A stretch of DNA of 38,975 nucleotides from an uncultured Caryophanales bacterium. GTDB lineage: Bacteria > Bacillota_I > Bacilli_A > RF39 > UBA660. A model generated the notes under the pieces. That model worked only from the letters and a program-made list of their open reading frames with translations. It had not been told where the DNA came from and made no database searches. Positions 17,451 through 38,733 of the stretch are shown here, piece by piece (the stretch's first letter is position 1; each line of letters begins with the position of its first letter). The stretch is from positions 1-38,975 of the forward strand of contig CAMOID010000006.1 of the NCBI GenBank assembly GCA_946615975.1, read 5' to 3'. Both the position numbers and the translations under genes were made by a program.

Positions 17451-17475
17451 AGAAAAAGACACATTTCTGTGTCTT
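17451..17475 (-). terminator. Intrinsic terminator after the giant surface protein gene
   Basis: On the minus strand AAGACACA and TGTGTCTT form a stem with a four-base loop, followed by TTTTTCTTT. It overlaps the stop codon of the giant gene. Confidence 0.8.
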
Positions 17476-20400
17476 AATTCTTAACAATTATATACGTATA
17501 TACATCTCCAACTTCATGAGTTCCATTATATAAAGTGAATTTGATTTTATACGTACCTGTAGTTAATTCTACATCATTTCTTAGTTTCAATGAAAGATGA
17601 TAATTACCCATACTAGCACTATCTGGATGATCAGTAAGTGCAGATTTCTTTATGGTCATTGTACTTACATCAAAGATGTCAGTAGCAGTTACATCACTTA
17701 AATCAGTAAATGTTGTATTATTTAAATCAAATAATGTATTAATATTTACTTCATTATAATCATAACTATTAATTTCATCATATTCTCTTCTCATTAATGA
17801 AACTTTAATTGAAGGATTAGCATATGATCCAAAATAATATAAATCAAGATCAACAACATCTTCACCACCAGTAGTTTTACCGTTCTTATATACGATAGTA
17901 TCTGATTGTTCAGAAATAACACTATTTAATCCATATTTTTCATTAACAAGATTTACTCTAAATGTATCAGTAGAATTTGTAATTGTATCACCTTGTTTAG
18001 CATATAAACCATCAGATGACGCAAATGCTGTTACTCTAAATTCATATAATCCAGATCTAATATTACTATTACTTAAATCAACTGTAATAGTCTTATTAAC
18101 TTTAACAACATAGTCAGCTAATTTTAATCTTATTAAACCATTTGAAGCAGGTGCATAACCAACATCTCCAACATAGAATATTGCACCAGCAAGTTCATCA
18201 CCTACTACTTGAGTAGCAATTTCATTACCATTTTGATCTTCAGAAATATAATATAATCCGATTCTCAAACCTAATCTATCTTGGAAATAACTTGTATTTC
18301 TAACAGTTAATGTACCATATACATCATCATAAATTGGTTTTTCTTGTACTTCTACTTTAGTTTTAAAATTAAATATATCATCAACATATATACTTTCAGA
18401 TCCAGTTGGATAATCAGTTACATCTAAGTCAAATGATGCATCACTTGCATCAAACAAGTTGAAGTTCATCCTACTCATAGTTTCTGAAATAGGTGTTGAG
18501 AATACATATTGATTCTCGCCTTCAGTAGCTCTCAACGCTAAGTAGAATTCTTCATTAGTAATTGGAAGTGTACCACTATGAGTAGTAACATCTCTAAAAT
18601 CTACCATAAATATGAATGATTCTACAGTAGATGTAGCTGGATTACCATCCAAGTCAACATCATCAATTAAGTATCTACTTCTATTTTCTGCTTCATTAAA
18701 TAAGTTTCCTTCACTAGTTGAATCCATTTGTCTAAACCAAGAAAGTGGATAACTATAGAATGTTGCAGAATCACCATTATATTTATTATCTGATATAGGT
18801 TTTAATAATTCACCTTCAGTACCAGTTACATCATAATAATAGTATTTTGGATCTCTATTATCAGATATATCTAACATAGTTATTCTAGTACCAGCAGGTA
18901 AAACATATGAAGTATATAATACGTGATCTATTGTAGCACCAGGATATGTTTGTTCTGCTTTTGCATATATATCATTACCAGTAGCATACATATTAAAGTA
19001 TGTCGAGAATGTTGAATTTGGAGTAATATTTGTTCTAGATGATAAGAATGACTTATAGAACTTACCTGGAGCCATAGCTGATTCATAATCATCAGTGTCA
19101 TAATAAGCTGTATCTAAGTTAACATATACTTTAATTGTAGTTGTTGTTGATTCAACTAAATTTTCCATATATGCATGAGCTTTTATTGTAATAACTACAG
19201 TACCTAATTCTTTATCATGCTTAATATTTCTAGAATTTTCAAAATTAATTACAAATTTAGGAATCTTTTCAGAACCAGAACTATCATATTTAATAGTTCC
19301 ATCAACACGTTCACTTGAATCTACATTTGCAGTTTTCTTAAATCCAGTAAATCCTTCATTTACCCAACCTGAATCACTTGTTTCAACTGATAAACCAAAT
19401 ACAGATTCAGCTACATCAGATGAAGATGCAATTGTTGGAATTGAAGAAGAATCTATTAAAGATACCTCATCATTTAAAGTTGATGCATCAAAATCAACAA
19501 TATCAAATGATACTTTTAATGCATCACTAAATTGGTACATTGAAATTGACTTCATACCACTTAATGAATATTTAGAAGCAGTTAAGTTAACTTCCATCGC
19601 AATTGAAGGACTACCAATATTCCAGTAATAATATTCTTGTTTTTCTGGTGTAGGATTTATGATTGTTGAATATACTCTTCTAGTATTTCCATCTTCATAA
19701 TAAGTATTAGTATAGAAGCCATGAACTGTATAATCTTGTACATCTCCAGTATCAGGTCTATTAGCACCTAATACATAACCACTAAATTCAGTATTATTAA
19801 CAGCAACATTTGTACCTCTTGCATTAAAGTCGTATGCCTTATCAAAATAGTATCTTGAAATAGTAGAACCATCGTCTTCATAAACACCAACGAATGTCAT
19901 ACCATAAACATTACCGAAACCTTCACCAATTTCTTCTGCAGTAAGAATATTTAATCCTCTACCATTTAATAAATAAATTCTATTACCACCAGTAGTTGAT
20001 GAAATTACTTGTTTAACATCATCATCAACAGTAATTGTATTACCTGCTTTAGTAACAGTTTGAAGAACACCATTTGTTGTTGTTCCATCACTTGCAGTAT
20101 TTTGGCAATTACCTTGATATGAATATACATTTTGTAACATATTAGCTTGTGCACTTGTATAAATAGTTGAACTATTTCCAAGTTTTAAGTTACCTATATT
20201 ATTAAATGAATATCTAACTTTATCGAATTTATTAGTACTATCTGTAGCACCACTTAAAAGAACTGATGAATTACTTACAATAACATTTGTAGCTCTTTGA
20301 ATTGACGCCATACGTTTAGGATTATTTCTTGTTCCATAGTCAGTTAAATAAATATAACTATCACCTTTTGAACTTGAATAATTACCTGAACCAAATATAG

Positions 20401-23400
20401 ACTTACCAATATTTACCGTAACTTTATTATTAACATCAGTAACATAAATATCAATACCATTCATAACTGAGAAAGTCTTATAATCGTATGATTCAGCTTC
20501 TTTATTACCTGTTTCAGATCCGCCAAATACTGTTCCATTTATATTAACAGTAGCGCGACTATTGTTACCAGCTATCGTTGTTTTACCAAAAACAGAATTT
20601 GCATCATTTAATTCAAATATATTTTTTACTTCATTACTAACATTATTTGTTAAACCAACATATACATGTGATGAACCATAGATGATATCACCATATCCAC
20701 CACCATATACATTATTACCAATTGTACCAGAATCAATATAAACATATGTTGATGTAGGAACACTTGAATCACCTACATTAGCATCCTTAGCATATCCACC
20801 ACCGAATACACTTCCATCAATAGTCGGATTACCCGTTATAAGAACATACGGTGTTGAATACATAGTAGCAGGTGTTTCCATCGTAGTATCATCAATATCA
20901 CCAAATGATGATCCAAATACACTACCCGTTATATGTCCACCATAGATGACTGTTCGAGTCTTAGTACTAGAAGATGTACCCGTTGATGTTTTAGAACCAC
21001 CACCGTATACATTTCCAATTGTTACATCTGCTCCATTATTACCATTTACCATGATATTAACAGAATCGGTTCTACCACCTACATTGTTACCACCGAATAC
21101 ATTACCAATTGAGATATTAGATAATTCATCATTTAATCTTGGTAATTCGAATATACTATAATCAACAGTAACTTTTTGTTGTACTTGTGATGTATTTGCA
21201 GCAGTTGTCTTGTTTCCGTTTGTCATTCTCCAATTCCAAGTACCATAGTTAACATCATAAACTGTTGGCTTACAATTATTTAAACGATATTCATTACCAT
21301 AATGGTCAAATGCAACAATACTTTGTTCATCATAATGCCAATAATAATCTAAGTTAGAACCTTGTCTCGATGAATCATAATCAACACCATAAGGCCATGA
21401 AATAATTAATTTATAAGTTAATACTTGACCAGGTCCTAATGGATTTGATTTTTGTAAATCGTCTCTTTGTCTTTCATCAATAATGATTGTATGATCTACA
21501 ACTTGAACATTACCACCCGAATCGTTAAATATTAAATTACCAATAATTGGAGCTTTTAATTTTAATGTATATCTATCAAATGTAACATTTGATGTATTAT
21601 TATAAATTTTTAATGTATAGTTATATTCCCAGTTGTTTGGATTAGCTCTATTAATCCAAATATCGAAGGATAGTCCACCTTCAAGTTGACACATATCAGC
21701 TATTTGGTCTTTATATGTAGCTAATGTACCAATTGGATTTAATTCTCCAATATGAACATTAGATGTACCTACTTCACCATTTGTATTAGAACCACCATAA
21801 ATGTTTGTAATGTCTCCACCTTCAATATATGCATTAGTAGTATTTACCGATGAATTATTACCACCACCAAATAAGTTAGTTATTTTTGGATGGCCATTAA
21901 TAGTAACTACCGCATTACCACTAACACTACCATTATTTGAAGATGCATATACAGAATTAATTGTAGTTTGTTGAGTAGAATTATTAACAATTCTTAAATC
22001 TGTATTACCATTAACTGTGGATTCATTACCACCACCAAATACAGAACCTCCAATTGTAACACCATCATTAATTAATAAATTTAATGTACCATTACCATTA
22101 TCAAGATTAACCGATGCAAAATTTCCACCACCAAATACATTGTGTGTAACTGAAGTACCACTACCTTTTAATTCAATATTAACAGCTTTACTTTGAACTT
22201 CACCAAAACCTTGATAAGCTTCAGCTATTGCAGTACCATTTGCAAAATCAACTAAGTTATAATTTCTCCATGCTTCACCATCAGCAAATGGTATCCAAGT
22301 TAATGTAGTGAAATTAGGATAATCAGCTTTATTATCAATCGCATAAGATATAAATTCTGGATCATGATATCCATTAACAGTTTGGAATACTTTTACTGTT
22401 TCTTTAGTACTAGAATATCCTCCACCATAAACAGAACCACCAACTTTAGTATTATTTAAAACTAAAGTAATATCTCCAGTAACTTTTCCTTTATTTCCAC
22501 CACCATAAACATCTCCAACAACTTCTGAATCATTGATAAATAATTTAACATTATCAACAGTTGCTGCAGAAAGAACTGCATAATATTTAGTGTAATAAGA
22601 AATAGCACATCCATTTTTAGAAATTATTTCAGCTGTGAAATACGAATCAATAAATACACGTGAAGGTATAGTATTTGAAATCCACAATTGATGTGAAGAT
22701 CCAGGGCTATAATCACCAGTTCCTAAAGTATAATTTGTTGTAGTACATGTTTCATTCTTTTGAATCGAATTAAATGGTAAATATAGTGTTCCACCGAATC
22801 CGGCACCATATACTTGATTAATTTTAGAATTATTAATTGTATTTTTTGTTCCACCTTCAATAGAGCCAAATTCAGGACCACCATAGTAATATCCAATACG
22901 TGAATCATCAACAGTAACTTCAACACCTTGCTCCATATCTGCTGACTCGTAGTGTCCACCTGCATAGAATGTATTAATATAAGAACCATCAATATCAATA
23001 TATACTGGTTTTCTTGCACCAGATGCATACACAGCATGGAATGTATCTATATATCCACCATCTGTATTAATATAAGTATTAATACCATTTGTAGAACCTG
23101 ATACATAATTTGAAGCTAATTCCTTAACTCTACCACCTAAAACATTAATAGTTGCAACATGTTTCCAACCACCTGCTGTTTCAATATAACCAGATGTTAA
23201 TAAATCAGCATAAGCTTTTCCACCAAATAAGATATATCTAATATTAACTGAGTTATCACTTGAATTACCTGCTCCAGCAAAAATATTATAATATCCACCA
23301 TTAACTCTAACAGAATTAGCAATACCAACATTTAAATCAATTAAATCAGTAGCAACTGATTCTGTTACTTCAAAGTCTGATTGATTAGCTAAATGGAATT

Positions 23401-25780
23401 GATTTAATTTACCATTTGTTATACCAACTTGTGGAATTCCTAATAAATTAATAAAATCAAATCTGATACTCGGAATAGTCATATTATGAAGATTTCTCAT
23501 ATACAATGAGTAATCCGGTTTATTATCATTATCCTCATCTAAACTTCTAATAGTAACTTTTACATCCGTTCTAGTAGTAGCAAAATCACCCTCTAAATCA
23601 GTAGGACTATCTTGAACTGGAGAATAATGTAAATTATCAACAAGAACAATAACTGTACTATATAAGTCATCATGTTTAGGAGTTTTTGCAGCTTCCTCAT
23701 ATGCTTTAGCTAATGTTTCTACAGCTTTTGCTTTAGTTTTGCCATCTCTTGTTTCGTTATTATTAACTACTTCACTATCTAAATTACCAGTTAATCCAAA
23801 ACTATCGATTGATCCCCATGCATCTAATGTATAATTAGTATTTCCAGTTAAAGGTTTAAATAATTCATCATGGAATGGATCTCCAACATAAATTGTATAA
23901 GCAAACACTGGTTCAAATACTACTTCTTTAACACCATCTGGAACTAAGTAATAACCACCTTCTGCATATACCATACCAATATCTTTAGATATATAACCAT
24001 ATCCATTTCTTAATGCGTAATTATAAGATAAGTTTTTAGCATCAATACCAGTTGCAATTTCACCATCATTTGCATCTTTAACATAAACTAATTTCCAACC
24101 AACAAATGTCATTTCATATCCATCTTGATTAGCTTTAGTAGCATGTATTTCTGAATTATATGGAAGAATAATTTTTCTATTAGTAAAGTCATTTTCTTCT
24201 GGATTCATATCATAAATTGGTAAATCTCTTGTTGCAAATATATTCTTATTAATTTGTTCTCTATATCTTAAACATTTACTACCAGAATAAGCAGCACACA
24301 CTTGCGTAGTAGTTATAGATCCAAAATTAACTTTTAATGTACCATTACTAGTAGTATCTTCTGTACTAGTTGCTATTGTACGTCTTCTTAAAATTGGATA
24401 TGGAGAAATAGTAACATCTATATACCATTCACCAATATCTGTATATCCTGTTGTTTGACTATCTCTTGGATTATTATCATATCCTAAGTAGTAATAATCC
24501 ATATATCTATAATTATTTAAGTGAGCAATAAATCCTTCTGAAACAAAATCATCAGAGTTTTTAGCAATTGAATATGTTTCATATGCTGGATTTGTTGGCA
24601 TATCTTTTGTATCACCACTCCACATATAATATGTATATGTAGGAGTAATTGATGTTGATACATTTTGAGGCGCATTATAAACGAATCTATAGTCATTATT
24701 CTTATCAGCCATTGTAATAGTTCCATAATAAACTAAACTATATACAACACTCTTCTTACCTCTCATATTCGAAGTATTAGCATCTCTATAACCAACAACT
24801 CCACCAATTTTTGTGTTAGTTCCTAAAGTATTATCACTAGTTATATCAACATATGAATAGCAATTTATAACGCCATTATTATTATCTTTATCAGCAATAA
24901 ATCCAACTAATGAACCAATGTAATTCTTTTTAGAAGTATTCATTTGTCCAATAGTAATTGTTCCTGATAATACACCAGAGTTATAAACTACTGCTTTACT
25001 TCCAACATATGATACTAATGAACCTACATAATAATTTGCAGTACCAGATGTAGATATACTAACATCATCAATTATAAAGTTTTTAACAACTGGTTTAGTA
25101 CCATCACCAATTCTACCTAATAAAGAAATATCTCCTCTACCAGATTCATCAGTATTAATAGTTAAACCTTTAATATGTTGATAGTTACCATCAATTTCAC
25201 CAGAGAATAATTTATCAGAAGCACTTCCAATATTAATTCCTGCAAAATCTATATTTTGAGTTATTTTATAATAACGTCTATTATTTTTATCAAATGTAGT
25301 ATAGTTTTCTTCAGATCTAAAATTTAATAATGCTCTAGGAGAAGCAATAATATATGGATCAGTTTGGCTACCAGTACCACCATCAAAGTTAGCATCTAAA
25401 TTTGTTGCATCCCATGTTGGGAATGTACCATCCCATACAACATAATCTAATTCAACTTTTTGATTATAATTTGGATTATCTTGCATGAATAATTTATACC
25501 AGAATGGAGTTTCAACTTCAGAAACTTCTCCATTCATAAAGTTTTGGTTAACACCTAATTTAGAAAATGTTTCAATTACATGTGATACAACTATAATAGC
25601 TAAGAATATAACAACTATAATTGTTACATTTCTAACTTTAGGACGTTGTTTAAAGAAAATGATAGATGATTTAAAGAAATGTTTAATTGATAAAAAAATA
25701 GGTTTTATTTTTAATTGAAAAAATCTTTTAATTGAACGTTTATAATCTTTAGCTTCATTACGACGTTTAAACAATTTCAT
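17474..25780 (-). CDS. Giant N-anchored beta-repeat surface protein (2768 aa)
   Basis: A type II membrane protein: basic cytoplasmic segment (residues 1-50), one helix (about 51-67), then some 2,700 residues outside. Residues 136-185 (GSQTDPYIIASPRALLNF, YYKITQNIDF) and 245-335 (VGSLVSYV, IGSLVGFIAD with INCYSY, IGGVVGYRD) look like GLUG-type beta repeats. A region near 540-620 has a GYEMTFVGWK strand as in InlB-like B repeats. Residues about 850-1800 hold some sixteen copies of a V(Y/F)GGGN/Y-type turn, each followed by a strand, suggesting a long parallel beta-helix, interrupted at about 1355-1493 by a separate beta domain. The last 800 residues look like Ig-like modules. There is no LPXTG sorting signal. 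The start has AAGGAG eight bases upstream. It is transcribed alone between the other units of the surface locus. Adhesion or stalk function is inferred. Confidence 0.85.
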   Translation of the reverse strand: MKLFKRRNEAKDYKRSIKRFFQLKIKPIFLSIKHFFKSSIIFFKQRPKVRNVTIIVVIFLAIIVVSHVIETFSKLGVNQNFMNGEVSEVETPFWYKLFMQDNPNYNQKVELDYVVWDGTFPTWDATNLDANFDGGTGSQTDPYIIASPRALLNFRSEENYTTFDKNNRRYYKITQNIDFAGINIGSASDKLFSGEIDGNYQHIKGLTINTDESGRGDISLLGRIGDGTKPVVKNFIIDDVSISTSGTANYYVGSLVSYVGSKAVVYNSGVLSGTITIGQMNTSKKNYIGSLVGFIADKDNNNGVINCYSYVDITSDNTLGTNTKIGGVVGYRDANTSNMRGKKSVVYSLVYYGTITMADKNNDYRFVYNAPQNVSTSITPTYTYYMWSGDTKDMPTNPAYETYSIAKNSDDFVSEGFIAHLNNYRYMDYYYLGYDNNPRDSQTTGYTDIGEWYIDVTISPYPILRRRTIATSTEDTTSNGTLKVNFGSITTTQVCAAYSGSKCLRYREQINKNIFATRDLPIYDMNPEENDFTNRKIILPYNSEIHATKANQDGYEMTFVGWKLVYVKDANDGEIATGIDAKNLSYNYALRNGYGYISKDIGMVYAEGGYYLVPDGVKEVVFEPVFAYTIYVGDPFHDELFKPLTGNTNYTLDAWGSIDSFGLTGNLDSEVVNNNETRDGKTKAKAVETLAKAYEEAAKTPKHDDLYSTVIVLVDNLHYSPVQDSPTDLEGDFATTRTDVKVTIRSLDEDNDNKPDYSLYMRNLHNMTIPSIRFDFINLLGIPQVGITNGKLNQFHLANQSDFEVTESVATDLIDLNVGIANSVRVNGGYYNIFAGAGNSSDNSVNIRYILFGGKAYADLLTSGYIETAGGWKHVATINVLGGRVKELASNYVSGSTNGINTYINTDGGYIDTFHAVYASGARKPVYIDIDGSYINTFYAGGHYESADMEQGVEVTVDDSRIGYYYGGPEFGSIEGGTKNTINNSKINQVYGAGFGGTLYLPFNSIQKNETCTTTNYTLGTGDYSPGSSHQLWISNTIPSRVFIDSYFTAEIISKNGCAISYYTKYYAVLSAATVDNVKLFINDSEVVGDVYGGGNKGKVTGDITLVLNNTKVGGSVYGGGYSSTKETVKVFQTVNGYHDPEFISYAIDNKADYPNFTTLTWIPFADGEAWRNYNLVDFANGTAIAEAYQGFGEVQSKAVNIELKGSGTSVTHNVFGGGNFASVNLDNGNGTLNLLINDGVTIGGSVFGGGNESTVNGNTDLRIVNNSTQQTTINSVYASSNNGSVSGNAVVTINGHPKITNLFGGGNNSSVNTTNAYIEGGDITNIYGGSNTNGEVGTSNVHIGELNPIGTLATYKDQIADMCQLEGGLSFDIWINRANPNNWEYNYTLKIYNNTSNVTFDRYTLKLKAPIIGNLIFNDSGGNVQVVDHTIIIDERQRDDLQKSNPLGPGQVLTYKLIISWPYGVDYDSSRQGSNLDYYWHYDEQSIVAFDHYGNEYRLNNCKPTVYDVNYGTWNWRMTNGNKTTAANTSQVQQKVTVDYSIFELPRLNDELSNISIGNVFGGNNVGGRTDSVNIMVNGNNGADVTIGNVYGGGSKTSTGTSSSTKTRTVIYGGHITGSVFGSSFGDIDDTTMETPATMYSTPYVLITGNPTIDGSVFGGGYAKDANVGDSSVPTSTYVYIDSGTIGNNVYGGGYGDIIYGSSHVYVGLTNNVSNEVKNIFELNDANSVFGKTTIAGNNSRATVNINGTVFGGSETGNKEAESYDYKTFSVMNGIDIYVTDVNNKVTVNIGKSIFGSGNYSSSKGDSYIYLTDYGTRNNPKRMASIQRATNVIVSNSSVLLSGATDSTNKFDKVRYSFNNIGNLKLGNSSTIYTSAQANMLQNVYSYQGNCQNTASDGTTTNGVLQTVTKAGNTITVDDDVKQVISSTTGGNRIYLLNGRGLNILTAEEIGEGFGNVYGMTFVGVYEDDGSTISRYYFDKAYDFNARGTNVAVNNTEFSGYVLGANRPDTGDVQDYTVHGFYTNTYYEDGNTRRVYSTIINPTPEKQEYYYWNIGSPSIAMEVNLTASKYSLSGMKSISMYQFSDALKVSFDIVDFDASTLNDEVSLIDSSSIPTIASSSDVAESVFGLSVETSDSGWVNEGFTGFKKTANVDSSERVDGTIKYDSSGSEKIPKFVINFENSRNIKHDKELGTVVITIKAHAYMENLVESTTTTIKVYVNLDTAYYDTDDYESAMAPGKFYKSFLSSRTNITPNSTFSTYFNMYATGNDIYAKAEQTYPGATIDHVLYTSYVLPAGTRITMLDISDNRDPKYYYYDVTGTEGELLKPISDNKYNGDSATFYSYPLSWFRQMDSTSEGNLFNEAENRSRYLIDDVDLDGNPATSTVESFIFMVDFRDVTTHSGTLPITNEEFYLALRATEGENQYVFSTPISETMSRMNFNLFDASDASFDLDVTDYPTGSESIYVDDIFNFKTKVEVQEKPIYDDVYGTLTVRNTSYFQDRLGLRIGLYYISEDQNGNEIATQVVGDELAGAIFYVGDVGYAPASNGLIRLKLADYVVKVNKTITVDLSNSNIRSGLYEFRVTAFASSDGLYAKQGDTITNSTDTFRVNLVNEKYGLNSVISEQSDTIVYKNGKTTGGEDVVDLDLYYFGSYANPSIKVSLMRREYDEINSYDYNEVNINTLFDLNNTTFTDLSDVTATDIFDVSTMTIKKSALTDHPDSASMGNYHLSLKLRNDVELTTGTYKIKFTLYNGTHEVGDVYTYIIVKN

Positions 25781-27016: not shown

Positions 27017-28588
27017 CTATCCCATCTTCTTTAATCTTTCAAGATATTCTTTACATTCTAAGAATTCTGTCTTACCAAATAATTTATTTAAGAAATTAAT
27101 AAATCCATCAATTTCATCTCTAATATAAGTTAAGTTTAATTGTTCAAATTTTCTCAAAATCTTACGAGCAATAAAATAATCAACAGCATCAATTTCCTTA
27201 CCACCACATGCAACATATACTGGTACGAAGTCTCTCATATGTTTAACGATACGATTACCGAAAGCGATACGGAAATGTTCAATAACATAGTCATCCATTT
27301 GTTCAACTTTAGCATACATTTCATCTGTTAAAGGATGTTCTTCTTTAGCTTGTTTAAATAATTTTAATAAGTATGAAGCATTAATTTTTTCAGCTTCAGT
27401 TGGAATCGGTTCAAATGGTGTACCTTTTTCATTTATATCAATAGGCATAGCACGGTCGTATACCTTATCTGTAACCATGAATGTCGAATCATCGTTGTTG
27501 ATTGTTCCGATATACCACATATTACCTGGTATATGTAATTGACCTTTAGTTAAACGTTTAGGGTCATTTGGCCAAGCTGATGGAACGATATCAATAATCC
27601 ATTCATCAACTGATGGCATTTCTAGAATAGATAACATTTCAGCGAAGTAGTACTCAACTCTCGCGATGTTCATTTCATCTAGAACCATTGTATAAACATC
27701 ATCAGTAAATCCAGCTTTATACATTTCAGCAAGAACTCCTGATTCATTAAACTTTTTAGTAAATTCGTTAAAGTATCCAAATAATTCTGTTCTATCTCTC
27801 CATGATGGTTGTACAGAAGCAATATATGAATCGTTCTTAACAAATTTACCCCAAGCATATGCTAAGGAAGTTTTACCTGTACCAGAAATACCTTGTAAGA
27901 TTACTAATCTTGTTGAAGCTATTGCTGATAAGAAAATATCCATCATTTTCTTAGAATAATATAAGCCTAATTTAGAAGCGGCAAAGTTTCTAAAATTAGT
28001 TGATAATTCTTCAAGTGTGAAGTTGTTACCATAATCTTGAATTTTATAGTTAGCATATTCTAAGTCTAAAGTACATAACTTAACGAATCTAGCATTTGGA
28101 TCAATCTTATTAGATAGATCTCCTTCTTCAGTTTCTTCTTCAGGTGTAGAATCATTTGTAGTAGAAAGAGCATTATTCTTCTTATCTGTAGCTTTATCAT
28201 TAGGTCCTAAACCTAATTGAGAAACCTTCATAGCCATAATATCGTCTTTTTCTTGTTGTAACTTTTTAACACTTTCTTGTAAGTCAGCAACTTCATTTAA
28301 TAATTCTTCTTGTTCAACTACTCTTTTTCTTAGTTTAACAATTTTTCTTATTATAAATACTAATAAAGCAATTATTAATATTAAAATTACTAATACTAAA
28401 ACAACTGATAAAACAACTAATATCCACATACCACCACTGAATTCAGATGAATAATCTCTTACTATTCTGATATATTCAGGGATATTAAAAATAGAAACAA
28501 AACCGTTTACTATTCCTTCGAATATTAGTTTAAATCCATTAAAGAATTGACTTAAAAAATCAAATAAAAATCTAAAGAATTCATCCAT
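27017..28588 (-). CDS. Membrane-anchored McrB-type AAA+ ATPase
   Basis: A 523-aa protein with three parts. Residues 1-50 form an amphipathic/aromatic start, 54-80 a membrane helix and 85-118 a coiled coil. A low-complexity acidic linker runs to about 165. The AAA+ module follows: Walker A GISGTGKTS (233-241), Walker B MVLDEMN (301-307) with the McrB-like DEMNIAR continuation, sensor region GTINNDDSTF (361-370) and the arginine-finger-like VYDRAMP (Arg379). McrB enzymes act with an McrC partner, here the DUF2357-like gene ten bases downstream. Membrane tethering is unusual for McrB, which is cytosolic in restriction systems. Together with the surface-protein neighbours it suggests a role in assembling or controlling membrane complexes. 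The start ATG 28588 has AGGAAG ten bases upstream. Confidence 0.85.
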   Translation of the reverse strand: MDEFFRFLFDFLSQFFNGFKLIFEGIVNGFVSIFNIPEYIRIVRDYSSEFSGGMWILVVLSVVLVLVILILIIALLVFIIRKIVKLRKRVVEQEELLNEVADLQESVKKLQQEKDDIMAMKVSQLGLGPNDKATDKKNNALSTTNDSTPEEETEEGDLSNKIDPNARFVKLCTLDLEYANYKIQDYGNNFTLEELSTNFRNFAASKLGLYYSKKMMDIFLSAIASTRLVILQGISGTGKTSLAYAWGKFVKNDSYIASVQPSWRDRTELFGYFNEFTKKFNESGVLAEMYKAGFTDDVYTMVLDEMNIARVEYYFAEMLSILEMPSVDEWIIDIVPSAWPNDPKRLTKGQLHIPGNMWYIGTINNDDSTFMVTDKVYDRAMPIDINEKGTPFEPIPTEAEKINASYLLKLFKQAKEEHPLTDEMYAKVEQMDDYVIEHFRIAFGNRIVKHMRDFVPVYVACGGKEIDAVDYFIARKILRKFEQLNLTYIRDEIDGFINFLNKLFGKTEFLECKEYLERLKKMG

Positions 28589-28615
28589 TTAAGACCATCT
28601 TCCTATTCTTACATA

Positions 28616-28624
28616 AGTATATCA
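28616..28624 (-). promoter_or_regulatory. Extended -10 promoter for the ATPase-DUF2357 unit
   Basis: The minus strand reads TGATATACT, identical to the module at 11008, about 28 bases upstream of the ATPase start. The -35 is weak. Confidence 0.55.
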
Positions 28625-28687
28625 AATAAAAAATATAATTAAAAGATTAAATTTATATGAAATACTAGAAAATAAATAGAAAATTTG

Positions 28688-28710
28688 TTATTCTATATTA
28701 TATAGAATAA
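28688..28710. promoter_or_regulatory. Perfect 10-bp palindrome before the HerA-like gene
   Basis: TTATTCTATA and TATAGAATAA are exact inverted repeats around a three-base centre. The repeat ends one base before the ribosome binding site (AGGGTGA) of the HerA-like ATPase. It is either a repressor operator within the divergent 28589-28722 region or an RNA hairpin that would affect translation. There is no T run after it, so it is not a terminator. Confidence 0.6.
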
Positions 28711-28722
28711 AGGGTGATAGAA

Positions 28723-30486
28723 ATGTTTGGTAAAATACTAGGATTTGATCAATCAAAAATTATTCTTGAAAATAACAATGGTGTTGCTGATACAAACTAT
28801 ATAGGATACCATGTAGTATTTCCTGAACAAGATCATAAAATTGTTGGAGAAATAGTAGGAATTGATTCAACTAAGATAATTGTATTATTAATTGGTGAAA
28901 TAATTAATAACAGATTCTCATCTGGTGTATTAAAGAAACCATCAATGAATACAACATGTAGAATTATTTTTAAATCAGAACTAGAATCAATCTTAGGTAG
29001 TCAAAACTATTTAGATAAAAACAATTTATTATTTGGTACATCACCTATTTATAAAGATTATGTAGTAACTTCTAATTTAAATAATTTCTTTGCTAATCAC
29101 TTTGCTATCATTGGTAATACTGGATCAGGAAAATCATGTGGCTTAGCTAGATTAATACAAAATGTATTCTTTACTTCATCTAATGAAATACCAAGAAATG
29201 CACATATGTGTTTATTCGATGTATATGGTGAATATTACAATACATTTGATGAAATGGAAAAATTCCCAGGATTACATTTTAAAAAATATACAACACAATT
29301 AGACTTTGGTAATGCATCATTATTTGCAATACCTGCAAATTTCTTAGGTGTTGATGATTTAGCAATTTTATTAGGTGCAACTGATGCAACACAATTACCA
29401 GTATTAGCTAAAGCATTGGATTTAGTAAAAATATTTAAATCTAACGATCCAAAAGCTGATGATTATAAAAATGATATTATAGCAAGAACAATTCTTGATA
29501 TGTTATCAAGTGGTAAAACAAGTAATCAAATGCGTGATCAAATAGTTTCATTACTATCAAGTTATAATACAAATTCATTAAACTTAAATTCAGTTATTAA
29601 ACAACCTGGATATGATAGAACATTAAGACAATGTTTAAACATTGATGATCAAGGTAAAATTAATGCAATGAACTTAGTTGTTGAATTTATTCAATCATAT
29701 GTAAAAGTTGATAATGAAGATATTGATTTAGATCAAAATATAGTTTATTCACTTCAAGATATTTACTATGCATTAGAGTTTGCTCTTATAAATGAAGGTT
29801 CATATACAAATGAATTAGTATATGATAGAAATAATGTATTAAAATCTAGATTACAATCTATTATAAATTCAGATCAAGTTAATTACTTTACTTCAGATAA
29901 ATATTGGACTAAAGAAGATTTCATTAAAGATTTCTTTAGTACAGCTGATGGTACTACACCATGTCAATTAGTAGATGTTAACTTATCTTTTATTGATGAT
30001 AGATTTGCAAAAAATCTAGTAAAAATATTCTCTAAATTATTCTTTGAATTTACTACTACAAATGAACCAAGAGGAGATTATTCAATACATATTTTACTAG
30101 AAGAAGCACATAGATATGTTACTGCTGATACTGATACTGAAGTATTAGGATATAACATTTTTGATAGAATCACTAAAGAAGGTAGAAAATATGGTACTAT
30201 CTTAGGATTCATAACTCAAAGACCTAAAGAGTTATCTAAGACAGCTATATCTCAATGTTCTAACTTCATAGTATTTAGATTGTTCTATCCAGAAGATCTA
30301 GAAATAGTTAGAAGTATTTCATCAAATGTTACTGATGAAAATATTGAAAAGATAAAGACATTACATCCAGGTATGGGATTAGTATTTGGTACTGCATTTA
30401 AAGTTCCACTTCTAGTTAACTTCCCATTACCAAATCCAATGCCAGTATCAACTTCATTAAGAATTGTAGATTCATGGTATAAATAA
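28723..30486 (+). CDS. HerA/VirB4-like ATPase (DUF87 family)
   Basis: A 587-aa soluble protein. The first 110 residues form a small beta domain (HAS-barrel-like). The ATPase core follows: Walker A GNTGSGKS (131-138), CLFDVYGEYY as seen in HerA proteins, a helical insert at about 215-370, Walker B IHILLEEAHRY (about 455-465), and the TQRPKELSK motif typical of HerA/FtsK-type hexameric ATPases. HerA works with the nuclease NurA in DNA-end processing, and HerA-like ATPases also occur in defence systems and in conjugation-like pumps. No NurA or other effector is encoded next to it. The start was set at ATG 28723 after AGGGTGA, in preference to GTG 28714 which overlaps that site. It has its own terminator. 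Confidence 0.85.
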   Translation: MFGKILGFDQSKIILENNNGVADTNYIGYHVVFPEQDHKIVGEIVGIDSTKIIVLLIGEIINNRFSSGVLKKPSMNTTCRIIFKSELESILGSQNYLDKNNLLFGTSPIYKDYVVTSNLNNFFANHFAIIGNTGSGKSCGLARLIQNVFFTSSNEIPRNAHMCLFDVYGEYYNTFDEMEKFPGLHFKKYTTQLDFGNASLFAIPANFLGVDDLAILLGATDATQLPVLAKALDLVKIFKSNDPKADDYKNDIIARTILDMLSSGKTSNQMRDQIVSLLSSYNTNSLNLNSVIKQPGYDRTLRQCLNIDDQGKINAMNLVVEFIQSYVKVDNEDIDLDQNIVYSLQDIYYALEFALINEGSYTNELVYDRNNVLKSRLQSIINSDQVNYFTSDKYWTKEDFIKDFFSTADGTTPCQLVDVNLSFIDDRFAKNLVKIFSKLFFEFTTTNEPRGDYSIHILLEEAHRYVTADTDTEVLGYNIFDRITKEGRKYGTILGFITQRPKELSKTAISQCSNFIVFRLFYPEDLEIVRSISSNVTDENIEKIKTLHPGMGLVFGTAFKVPLLVNFPLPNPMPVSTSLRIVDSWYK

Positions 30487-36041: not shown

Positions 36042-36893
36042 ATGAACAATTTAGAAGTTAATAAACTAAATAAAACATTTAAAGAATTTTCTCTTAAAGA
36101 TGTTAATATCAAAGTTCCAGCTGGTAAAATTGTTGGTCTAATTGGAGAAAATGGTGCTGGTAAAACAACAATTATTAAATGTGTATTAGATGCAATGGCT
36201 AAAGACTCAGGCGAAGTTAAGTTATTTGGTCAAGATTATAATTATAAATTAAAAGATGATATTGGTATTGTATATGATGATTCATTTATAAACGAATCAT
36301 TTACTATAAGAGATTTAAATCTTATCATGAAAAATACATATTCTAAATGGGATCAAAAATTATTTTATAAATATATAAAAGAATTTAATATTCCATATAA
36401 GAAAGAAATAAAAAAATTATCTACAGGTATGAGAAAGAAAGTTGAAATTGCTGCATGCATTTCACATCATCCAAGATTATTAATCTTAGATGAACCTACT
36501 TCTGGATTAGATCCTGTAATAAGAAGTGAAATATTAGATATGTTCCAAGAATTTGTTGAAGATAAAAATAATTCTATATTATTATCAACTCATATAACAT
36601 CAGACTTAGAGCATATTGCAGATGATGTAATATTTATATCTAAAGGTACTATAGTATTTGATGAACCACTTAAAAAGGTTAAAGAAGATTATATAGTAAT
36701 TGAATTAGATAAAGATGAATTTAAGAAATTTAATAAAAAAGATATTACAAGATATAAAGAAAATAGAAATGATTATCAAGTACTTATAGAAAAGAAAAAC
36801 ATGAAGAAAGAATATAATAAGTATATTAAAAATATCACAACATTAGATGACATTATGCTTTTATATATAAGAGGTGCAATATGCGAGGATTAA
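36042..36893 (+). CDS. ABC transporter ATP-binding protein (YtrB/PmtA-like)
   Basis: A 283-aa ATPase. Walker A GENGAGKTT lies at 35-43, the signature LSTGMRKKVEIA about 127-138, Walker B LLILDEPTSGLDP about 147-159 and the switch histidine in LLSTHITSD about 184-190. The first 210 residues are the ATPase domain; the last 70 form a charged extension as in ATPases paired with small ABC-2 permeases of the YtrBC and phenol-soluble-modulin exporter (Pmt) type. The permease gene overlaps its 3' end by 13 bases, so the two form one exporter. Export of peptides or response to antibiotics is the usual role of such pairs; the substrate is unknown. The usual GntR-type regulator gene is not adjacent. Confidence 0.9.
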   Translation: MNNLEVNKLNKTFKEFSLKDVNIKVPAGKIVGLIGENGAGKTTIIKCVLDAMAKDSGEVKLFGQDYNYKLKDDIGIVYDDSFINESFTIRDLNLIMKNTYSKWDQKLFYKYIKEFNIPYKKEIKKLSTGMRKKVEIAACISHHPRLLILDEPTSGLDPVIRSEILDMFQEFVEDKNNSILLSTHITSDLEHIADDVIFISKGTIVFDEPLKKVKEDYIVIELDKDEFKKFNKKDITRYKENRNDYQVLIEKKNMKKEYNKYIKNITTLDDIMLLYIRGAICED

Positions 36894-37540
36894 TAATTAA
36901 AGATGCACTAACATTAAAAAGTACTTGGAAAAATCTAGTAGTAATGTTCATTGGATCAATGTTATTAAGTTATGCATTAGCTAACTATACATTAGCAATC
37001 ATAACTGTACCAATGGCATTATTAACATCTGGAATGAATACATTCCAAACAGATGAATTCTATAACACATTATCTTATACATTATCTGGTCCATATTCTA
37101 GAGTTAAAATGATATCAGCAAGATATTTATATACTCTATTAATGGCAGTAATATCATTCTTTGTTGGAGCAATTATATTTACTATAATTAATTTCACATT
37201 AAATCCAATAATAGATGCATTAAATATAGATATGTTAAGATTCTTATTAATGTTAGAATTAGCTGGATTATTAGTAGATGCTGTATTCTATCCAATTATT
37301 TATAAATATGGATGTGAAAAAGCAAGATTTGTTCTATTAAGTATAGTAATGTTATTACTTGGAATTGCTGCAGTAGTATCTGTATCATTCAATGTATTTG
37401 ATATGGCTCAACTTGATTGGGAAGCAATTATTAAATGGATGGAATCAAATGGTGTATTAGTATTATCAAGTATTACTTTAATACTATTTACTATATCATA
37501 TGGTTTATCTATATTATTCTTTAAGAAAAGAGACTTCTAA
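36881..37540 (+). CDS. ABC-2 type permease (PmtB/DUF-like, six helices)
   Basis: A 219-aa permease. The start MRGLIIKDALTLKSTWK and the segment SGPYSRVKMISARYLYTL (about 66-84) match ABC2_membrane_5-type permeases (PF13346), which carry a short cytoplasmic coupling segment after helix 2. Six hydrophobic segments are visible (about 18-36, 38-52, 86-107, 118-140, 147-168 and 190-212). The ATG at 36881 lies inside the ATPase gene and has AGAGGTG four bases upstream. It would dimerise or pair with a copy of itself and be driven by the ATPase encoded before it. The substrate is not known. Confidence 0.85.
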   Translation: MRGLIIKDALTLKSTWKNLVVMFIGSMLLSYALANYTLAIITVPMALLTSGMNTFQTDEFYNTLSYTLSGPYSRVKMISARYLYTLLMAVISFFVGAIIFTIINFTLNPIIDALNIDMLRFLLMLELAGLLVDAVFYPIIYKYGCEKARFVLLSIVMLLLGIAAVVSVSFNVFDMAQLDWEAIIKWMESNGVLVLSSITLILFTISYGLSILFFKKRDF

Positions 37541-37550
37541 GTCTCTTTTT
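37526..37550. terminator. Intrinsic terminator after the ABC permease gene
   Basis: AAAAGAGACTT and AAGTCTCTTTT form an 11-bp stem with a two-base centre and a T run; it overlaps the stop codon. The symmetrical A and T runs allow use on both strands. Confidence 0.8.
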
Positions 37551-37598
37551 ATTTACAATATTATTATGTAAAATTTAATGTCTAATAAATAAAAGTTA

Positions 37599-37627
37599 TT
37601 GTAAATTTAACAAATTAAAAATTATAT
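37599..37627 (+). promoter_or_regulatory. Candidate promoter of the structured RNA
   Basis: TTGTAA (37599-37604), a 17-base spacer and TTATAT (37622-37627) fit a vegetative promoter. Transcription would start near 37634-37641, just before the base-paired 5' end of the proposed RNA. The call is tentative because the region is AT-rich. Confidence 0.45.
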
Positions 37628-37640
37628 GTTGTATTATTAT

Positions 37641-38147
37641 TATAGGTGGTTACCAAAAATACAATTTTTTAACATTAATTAATAGTTTTCATGATGGAAT
37701 CTTAAAAATGCTCTCGCAGGCGGATGTATGAATTACTTTCTATGTGATTGTTTGGAATTATATCACGATTAATGTGTTTGGACCCGTATTTCAGATACAG
37801 CATCTAGACTTCAACAACTTTGATAACTAACCAAAAAGAGGTACTCTTGAAGTACTTACCTAATTAATATGTAAAAAGACGTATTAATTAATAATGATAT
37901 CTTGAAGGAGTTTAATTTATCATTATATCTACTAGTAACACATTCTTAAATCTTCGGATTGTAGAACTAGACTTAAATATTTAAAAGGTATTATTTAAGG
38001 AAATGTGTATTATATTTACAATTAATATTTTTATTTAATAAAATAAATAAGAAACCCTTATTTATGAACAACTTATGCTTATGAGTCGAAAAGTATTTAA
38101 AGAATACTAGAGTAAGAAATATCTTTTTTTACATTTCTTCCCCTATA
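37641..38147 (+). ncRNA. Candidate large structured non-coding RNA (about 507 nt)
   Basis: No reading frame of note lies between 37541 and 38229, yet the plus strand is full of exact hairpins. The ends pair: TATAGG (37641-37646) with CCTATA (38142-38147). Inside are: GTAT/ATAC (37786-37798); a 7-bp stem around CTTGA (37839-37857); an 11-bp stem 37861-37871 with 37880-37890 containing one G-U pair; a 9-bp stem 37891-37899 with 37918-37926; a stem 37938-37944 with 38002-38008 enclosing a C(UUCG)G tetraloop hairpin (37949-37960) and an 8-bp stem (37972-37979 with 37992-37999); a 9-bp stem 38043-38051 with 38057-38065; and AGTATT/AATACT (38092-38108). The UUCG loop and the G-U pair favour the plus strand. 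Size and host type recall the ROOL-class ornate RNAs, but I cannot confirm the family from memory of its sequence. It is not recognisable as tmRNA, RNase P or 6S RNA. Confidence 0.7.
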
Positions 38148-38201
38148 AAAAAAACTACTTCGAACTCTTAAAAAAAGTATTTTTTAAATAAAAATAGACT
38201 G

Positions 38202-38231
38202 AAAAAAAGAACTAGAAATAGTTCTTTTTTT
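38202..38231. terminator. Bidirectional intrinsic terminator
   Basis: AGAACTA, GAAA loop, TAGTTCT, flanked by seven A and seven T residues. It overlaps the stop of the lipoprotein gene on the minus strand and would end the plus-strand structured RNA 60 bases after its closing stem. The stretch 38148-38201 between them is A/T-rich and shows nothing else. Confidence 0.85.
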
Positions 38232-38733
38232 ATTTGCATTCATAACCACTTAAAGAATACTTATTAAATTCTTCATAGCTAAATGGAAGTTTCTTTGCTT
38301 TCTTAATTATATTATCATCATCAATAATAGAACCTAATTTCTTCTTAGCTAAATCTAAATCCATATCCAAATAATTATATTTAATTGTTATTATTAATTT
38401 ATCATCTACTGTATCAGTAAAAGCATCTATACCATCAATATCTTTATAAACACTTAGTAATTGATTTGTTAGTTCAATAGTTGCTTTATCAAATACAGTA
38501 CTTTTACTTATATTTTGAAATATTGCACTTTCAACATTTTCATTATCATCTAAATAAACATAAATATTACTTATAAAGTCTTCTGGAGTACCATCTTCAA
38601 GATCATATGTTTGTCCTGTTTTAACACATTTAATATCTGAATCATAATCAGGAATTGTTTTAACTTCTTCCTTTTTACTACATCCACATATTACTAAAGG
38701 AATTAATAATAATATAAGATATTTTAATTTCAT
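38230..38733 (-). CDS. DUF1307/YehR-like lipoprotein
   Basis: A 167-aa lipoprotein. The signal peptide MKLKYLILLLIPLVICGCSKK has a lipobox ending at Cys18 (ICG-C). The body has a first strand with Cys36 and a second cysteine near the end (GYECK), which could pair. The pattern of acidic strands, DDNENVESAIFQN, TNQLLSVYKDIDG and LIITIKYNYLDMD, resembles small YehR-type lipoproteins (DUF1307). The ATG overlaps the TGA of the U32 peptidase gene and no ribosome binding site is visible, so it depends on coupled translation. It is anchored on the outer face of the membrane. Function is not known. Confidence 0.7.
   Translation of the reverse strand: MKLKYLILLLIPLVICGCSKKEEVKTIPDYDSDIKCVKTGQTYDLEDGTPEDFISNIYVYLDDNENVESAIFQNISKSTVFDKATIELTNQLLSVYKDIDGIDAFTDTVDDKLIITIKYNYLDMDLDLAKKKLGSIIDDDNIIKKAKKLPFSYEEFNKYSLSGYECK

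Follow-up and report, generated by a model that had tools for sequence, protein, structure and literature searches.

A ~590-nt structured RNA gene of a rumen genus: probably a new class of large bacterial RNA that acts in trans

What occupies the roughly 690 bases that lie between two protein genes near the end of this contig of an uncultured Caryophanales bacterium? In the window, by which is meant the whole 38,975-nt stretch of DNA that was analysed, positions 37541-38229 hold no gene, as the original prediction had stated; they are bounded by a permease gene ending at 37540 and by a convergent lipoprotein gene on the minus strand. The prediction had placed a large structured RNA on the plus strand of this interval, at 37641-38147, and had allowed that it could be a new class. 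Both suggestions are borne out, as the strand folds better than its shuffles and covaries across 18 species, and Rfam 15 is blank in the window and at 17 homologous loci. The region was well placed, while its 3' side was drawn too short to take in the second strand of P13 and the terminator (Table 1). Judged from comparison of sequences, 37643-38235 almost certainly encodes a genuine structured RNA whose class is new to the record, its 5' end being placed from the -10 box and its 3' end from the terminator. It is likely that this is a stand-alone gene for a structured RNA of ~590 nt without an Rfam family, which would have its own promoter, act in trans and present a C-rich loop. A literature search of incomplete coverage found no publication describing the RNA; the most fitting reading is that it represents a new class of large bacterial RNAs acting in trans, with a conserved C-rich loop that is probably exposed.

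Table 1. Coordinates of the RNA, its predicted helices and signals, and its two flanking genes in the window
Feature	Position	Strand	Basis or remark
ABC-2 permease, conserved upstream neighbour	36881..37540	+	PF13346, 75 bits; synteny
-10 box TATTAT, putative own promoter of the RNA	37632..37637	+	5 nt 5' of conserved UAGG/UAGA start; comparison
Large structured RNA, ~590 nt	37643..38235	+	18 homologues, covariation, synteny
5' domain closed by P1	37645..37832	+	P1 37645-37652 with 37824-37832, one bulged A
P2	37657-37662/37786-37791	+	inside 5' domain
P3	37673-37679/37768-37774	+	inside 5' domain
P6 hairpin, then UUACCU	37841..37855	+	comparison
P7 hairpin	37864..37887	+	variable, missing from some relatives
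P8 hairpin, AGGA/AGGU in loop	37890..37926	+	both-side changes in 12/13 modelled pairs
P9	37932..37970	+	CUAG(U)/(A)CUAG outer stem; inner stem 37943-37952/37957-37966, UUCG cap in window
H-type pseudoknot	37938..38008	+	ACACAU 37938-37943 with AUGUGU 38003-38008
P10 hairpin inside pseudoknot	37972..37999	+	both-side changes in 7/7 pairs
P11	38043-38051/38057-38065	+	part of 38043..38085
P12	38072-38076/38081-38085	+	paired in 18/18
P13 terminal stem, large apical loop	38094..38190	+	strands 38094-38108/38176-38190
Intrinsic terminator, AT-rich	38202..38231	+	shared with convergent lipoprotein gene; comparison
DUF1307-like lipoprotein, convergent neighbour	38230..38733	-	24.5 bits, below Pfam cut-off 28.3; synteny

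Against dinucleotide shuffles, the plus strand has a folding z of -3.9 when the terminator is included (601 nt) and of -2.35 for the RNA without it, and some relatives have weak folding energies (G419 z +1.35, G415 -1.0, G031 -1.2). The GC content of the region is nothing unusual, contrary to the earlier claim of a local composition less AT-skewed than the flanks. The alignment of 18 sequences was fitted to the model structure, which inflates pair counts, and in it 33 of the 38 modelled pairs show both-side changes; 107 cells carry such changes compared to 32 +/- 5 in shuffles (0/500 as high) and 14-32 in slid controls, and 91% of cells are paired compared to 36-46% once the partners are slid. 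A first six-sequence MAFFT alignment, made without model fitting, has both-side changes in 12/38 pairs vs 5.2 when shuffled. The search for compensatory changes in homologues, which had been proposed as a check on the RNA, was thus run and strongly passed. AT-rich intergenic DNA is rich in hairpins by chance, and the single-sequence energies are only moderately low; however, the probability that nothing else is present here is negligible, since covariation stands far above the shuffled and slid controls and one copy is found in 11/11 genomes. The homologues have no reading frame in common, and a conserved covarying multi-domain fold with no conserved ORF is the pattern of a large structured bacterial noncoding RNA.

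The 5' domain contains two GUUUGG motifs and is closed by P1, which with hand-defined strands is paired in 18/18 sequences through exchanges of GUGGU/ACCAC, GAUGGU/ACCAUC, GACGA/UCGUC and GUGAU/AUCAC. A closing stem joining nucleotides 500 bases apart had also been proposed, and its complementary letters are indeed present in the window (UAUAGG at 37641-37646 and CCUAUA at 38142-38147), but the pairing is unsupported by the relatives: the 5' side reads UAGA in G193, G415, G005 and G419 with the 3' side unmatched, CCUU replaces CCUA in four relatives, and the 5' strand is taken by P1, whose partner lies ~170 nt downstream. In the central part of the molecule, the P6 region of the relatives has the form (G)UGA..stem..UGAUNACC, whose resemblance to a kink turn is put forward as an idea only. 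P9 was recovered in relatives by pattern and model; its CUAG/CUAG stem has no true variation and therefore yields no covariation, and the predicted C(UUCG)G tetraloop is present at 37952-37957. The pseudoknot is paired in 100% of cells over the 18 species and has both-side changes in 3/6 pairs, with UCACAU/AUGUGA, UUACAU/AUGUAA and UCAUAU/AUAUGA among its variants, and P12 occurs as CUUAU/AUGAG, CUCAU/AUGAG, CUUAU/AUAAG and CCUAU/AUAGG in the same species.

Transcription would start from the RNA's own promoter. Nearly all of the 18 relatives have a TANNNT-type hexamer 5 nt 5' of UAGG/UAGA, irrespective of the upstream context, and several carry TGACA 17 nt 5' of the hexamer, with the -35 box being weak in the window member. 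The terminator, a hairpin with a T run, is found in the same place in most relatives, and its stem sequences differ. A consensus promoter scan of the AT-rich window alone gives 9 sites vs 8.0 in shuffles, which is chance level, and the same single-sequence scan did not detect the terminator; the -10 box and terminator therefore rest on comparison, as neither signal rises above chance in the window alone. The promoter-like sequence and terminator that had been predicted on either side of the RNA thus hold as conserved positions in relatives and fail as an above-chance promoter signal in the window alone.

The ancestral gene order at the locus appears to be DUF308 - LSm - DUF1294 - ABC ATPase - ABC permease - RNA - XTPase - lipoprotein - U32 peptidase - glycosyltransferase, with losses. 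The RNA is 3' of the permease and on the same strand in 15/18 loci, an arrangement that would also suit an extended 3' UTR, or a regulatory RNA released by processing of the ABC transporter mRNA and working only with the transporter. This origin is improbable, however, as the RNA persists where the ABC pair is gone from the locus: in G002 and G008 it lies between DUF1294 and the lipoprotein gene and is divergent to the upstream gene, and in G001, on a short contig, it adjoins the lipoprotein gene. The RNA is therefore neither the tail of the ABC operon nor tied to the transporter, and further evidence against a processed transcript is its own conserved -10 box and the terminator-like hairpin in which the window permease itself ends (37526-37550). 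Nor is the RNA likely to be a leader, since the gene that follows it is convergent in most loci; in G003 and G007, where that gene shares the strand of the RNA, a terminator-like hairpin precedes it.

A 65-aa LSm-domain protein is encoded at L048:2148-2345 and L049:752-949 and also near the RNA in L133, L135, L136 and L137; the L048 copy scores 25.2 bits with the Pfam LSM model, above the cut-off, and in six genomes (G002, G008, G031, G415, G418 and G419) the protein lies within ~2.3 kb of the RNA. As a required partner it was rejected, for it is found in only 2/11 genus genomes and is thus not required for the RNA. Elsewhere in the window, which contains no tRNA, a large minus-strand block at 1654-26000 encodes anchored or exported proteins whose signal regions are of TYAWF type, along with several signal peptidase I-like genes scattered among them and a 2768-aa protein (17474-25780), and from its translations it looks like a surface-structure operon. 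At 27017-30486, the translations read as a McrB-type AAA ATPase-like gene beside a divergent HerA-like ATPase gene.

Searching with the DNA brought up two congeners, one with a copy of 85% identity and one with a partial match; in each, the sequence directly follows the same ABC-2 permease. Reading guided by the permease gave homologous regions in 8/11 genus genomes. A covariance model of the P8-P10 part, built from six sequences, then extended the RNA to another genus, and to two congeners that the permease guide had missed. With fuller scoring this model matched 7/9 sister-genus genomes; its search over 291 genomes was insensitive, missing the window itself, and is excluded from prevalence. 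A second covariance model, from 18 sequences, gives exactly one match per genome in 11/11 genus genomes (E 2e-13 to 2e-5) and zero matches among 29 other genomes. By these results the RNA belongs, as a single copy, to the core of one genus and of most of its sister genus, and its presence as one copy in each searched genus genome, in genomes of ~1-1.5 Mb, points to selection for a housekeeping or adaptive function and away from a selfish element.

When one genome per species was scanned with an exact pattern, over 84,980 species, eight stretches matched; their labels are 'Bacilli bacterium' or 'uncultured bacterium', and the sources that are named are ruminant gut. A pattern scan of 386 family genomes matched 18 and confirmed the RNA nowhere outside the two genera, where the matches are chance: their letters are unrelated, and a reversed control also gives a few. 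No phage or plasmid matches were found for the RNA, and 34 viral contigs fitting a loose pattern gave 0 confirmed by model. As read from the compared sequences, then, the locus is homologous in 18 species, folds into several covarying domains with a pseudoknot, occurs once per genome, keeps a fixed chromosomal place that is also evident as synteny over the 18 species, and has conserved positions of the -10 box and terminator.

P13 encloses a C-rich motif throughout the relatives even as its stem sequences are mostly unrelated (UAUUUAAAGAAUACU/AGUAUUUUUUAAAUA, UUUAAUACAA/UUGUAUUAAA, AUACUUAUGUGU/ACACAUAAGUAU). Its apical loop holds the conserved AUUUCUU(U)CCCC(C)UA, with the window copy at ~38133-38147, and is nearly invariant and unpaired, AUUUCUUUCCCCCUAA being found in most of the 18 species. 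A rigid core formed by the 5' domain, the P8-P10 pseudoknot, P12 and P13 would hold out the AUUUCUUUCCCCCUAA loop for binding by a protein or by a G-rich RNA. It is a credible suggestion, though one slightly on the doubtful side, that this C-rich loop makes the working contact; conservation is not peculiar to it, as the pseudoknot and the loop of P8 are likewise conserved. The AGG of the P8 loop and the CCU of the P13 loop are kept in most relatives, and a loop-loop contact between them may be possible; covariation is absent for this pair, and the pairing is broken in G418.

One use of such a loop would be that of a trans-acting antisense regulator, in which the UUUCUUUCCCCC loop would base-pair with target mRNAs at their G-rich ribosome-binding sites while the remainder serves as scaffold. 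The near identity of the loop over 18 species within unrelated stems is consistent with this, and a parallel is offered by the C-rich loops of staphylococcal regulatory RNAs, which pair with G-rich ribosome-binding sites; a pseudoknotted body of 590 nt, however, exceeds the usual need of such regulators, leaving antisense action possible but doubtful. If it were true, complements of UUUCUUUCCCCCUAA would be shared upstream of orthologous genes. In the favoured reading, the RNA would work in trans, either folded by itself or as a particle with protein, the mode of action proposed for OLE and ROOL. OLE, ROOL and GOLLD, solved as RNA alone, form RNA-only assemblies, and it is a tentative and rather unlikely proposal, taken as a whole, that this ornate RNA class, carried throughout the rumen genus and passed on by vertical descent, builds an assembly, of RNA and protein or of RNA only, in which the C-rich P13 loop is the contact. 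The contact partner would perhaps be the P8 loop with its AGG, in the same molecule or in another one. If the assembly proposal were true, the RNA would be a core-chromosomal counterpart of phage-borne RNA cages.

To our knowledge, only few bacterial RNA classes of such size are known, and as a new class this one is ready for experiment, its sequence being aligned over 18 species, its fold mapped and its place in the core genome fixed. The original prediction had named ROOL as the closest known class and proposed a check with the Rfam models of ROOL, GOLLD, OLE, HEARO and raiA, which was run with 0 matches. With Rfam 15 at gathering thresholds, the RNA is unmatched in the window; at E<=10, the 801-nt stretch 37500-38300 gives chance-level matches only, none of them to these five classes, and at E<=5 and E<=2 the 17 homologous loci have no match above chance. 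The ROOL model (RF03087, gathering score 99.1 bits) finds the true ROOL of plasmid pMP118, a positive control, at 130.4 bits and is silent across ten RNA-bearing genomes, so that, as far as the Rfam model reaches, kinship to ROOL is ruled out. ROOL is phage- or prophage-borne, often near tRNA islands, and the RNA is in neither setting. A highly divergent ROOL, OLE or GOLLD beyond the reach of Rfam models would agree with the comparable size (ROOL ~570-660 nt, OLE ~600), with the rumen origin shared with ROOL and with the pseudoknots (PMC12286853, PMC9723947), but it is very improbable given models that are blank on the 801-nt stretch and the 17 loci, a working ROOL model that is silent, and a core chromosomal setting that is neither prophage nor tRNA island.

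The new class is best placed beside OLE, ROOL and GOLLD, the large ornate RNA classes (PMC12286853), rather than within one of them. GOLLD is likewise a large ornate RNA with pseudoknots, but many of its members exceed 800 nt and are prophage-borne (PMC12286853), whereas this RNA is ~590 nt, chromosomal and without a match to the model. With ROOL (RF03087) it shares a length near 600 nt, pseudoknots, a rumen source and the lack of a coding frame (PMC12286853), and it differs in being unmatched by the model and in being a core chromosomal gene. OLE RNA (RF01071), whose model is unmatched here and whose neighbours differ, binds known proteins, OapC at a kink turn among them (PMC9723947); like this RNA, it is ~600 nt, chromosomal, stand-alone and found in Gram-positive anaerobes, and the kink-turn-like hairpin may, as an idea, be a further likeness.
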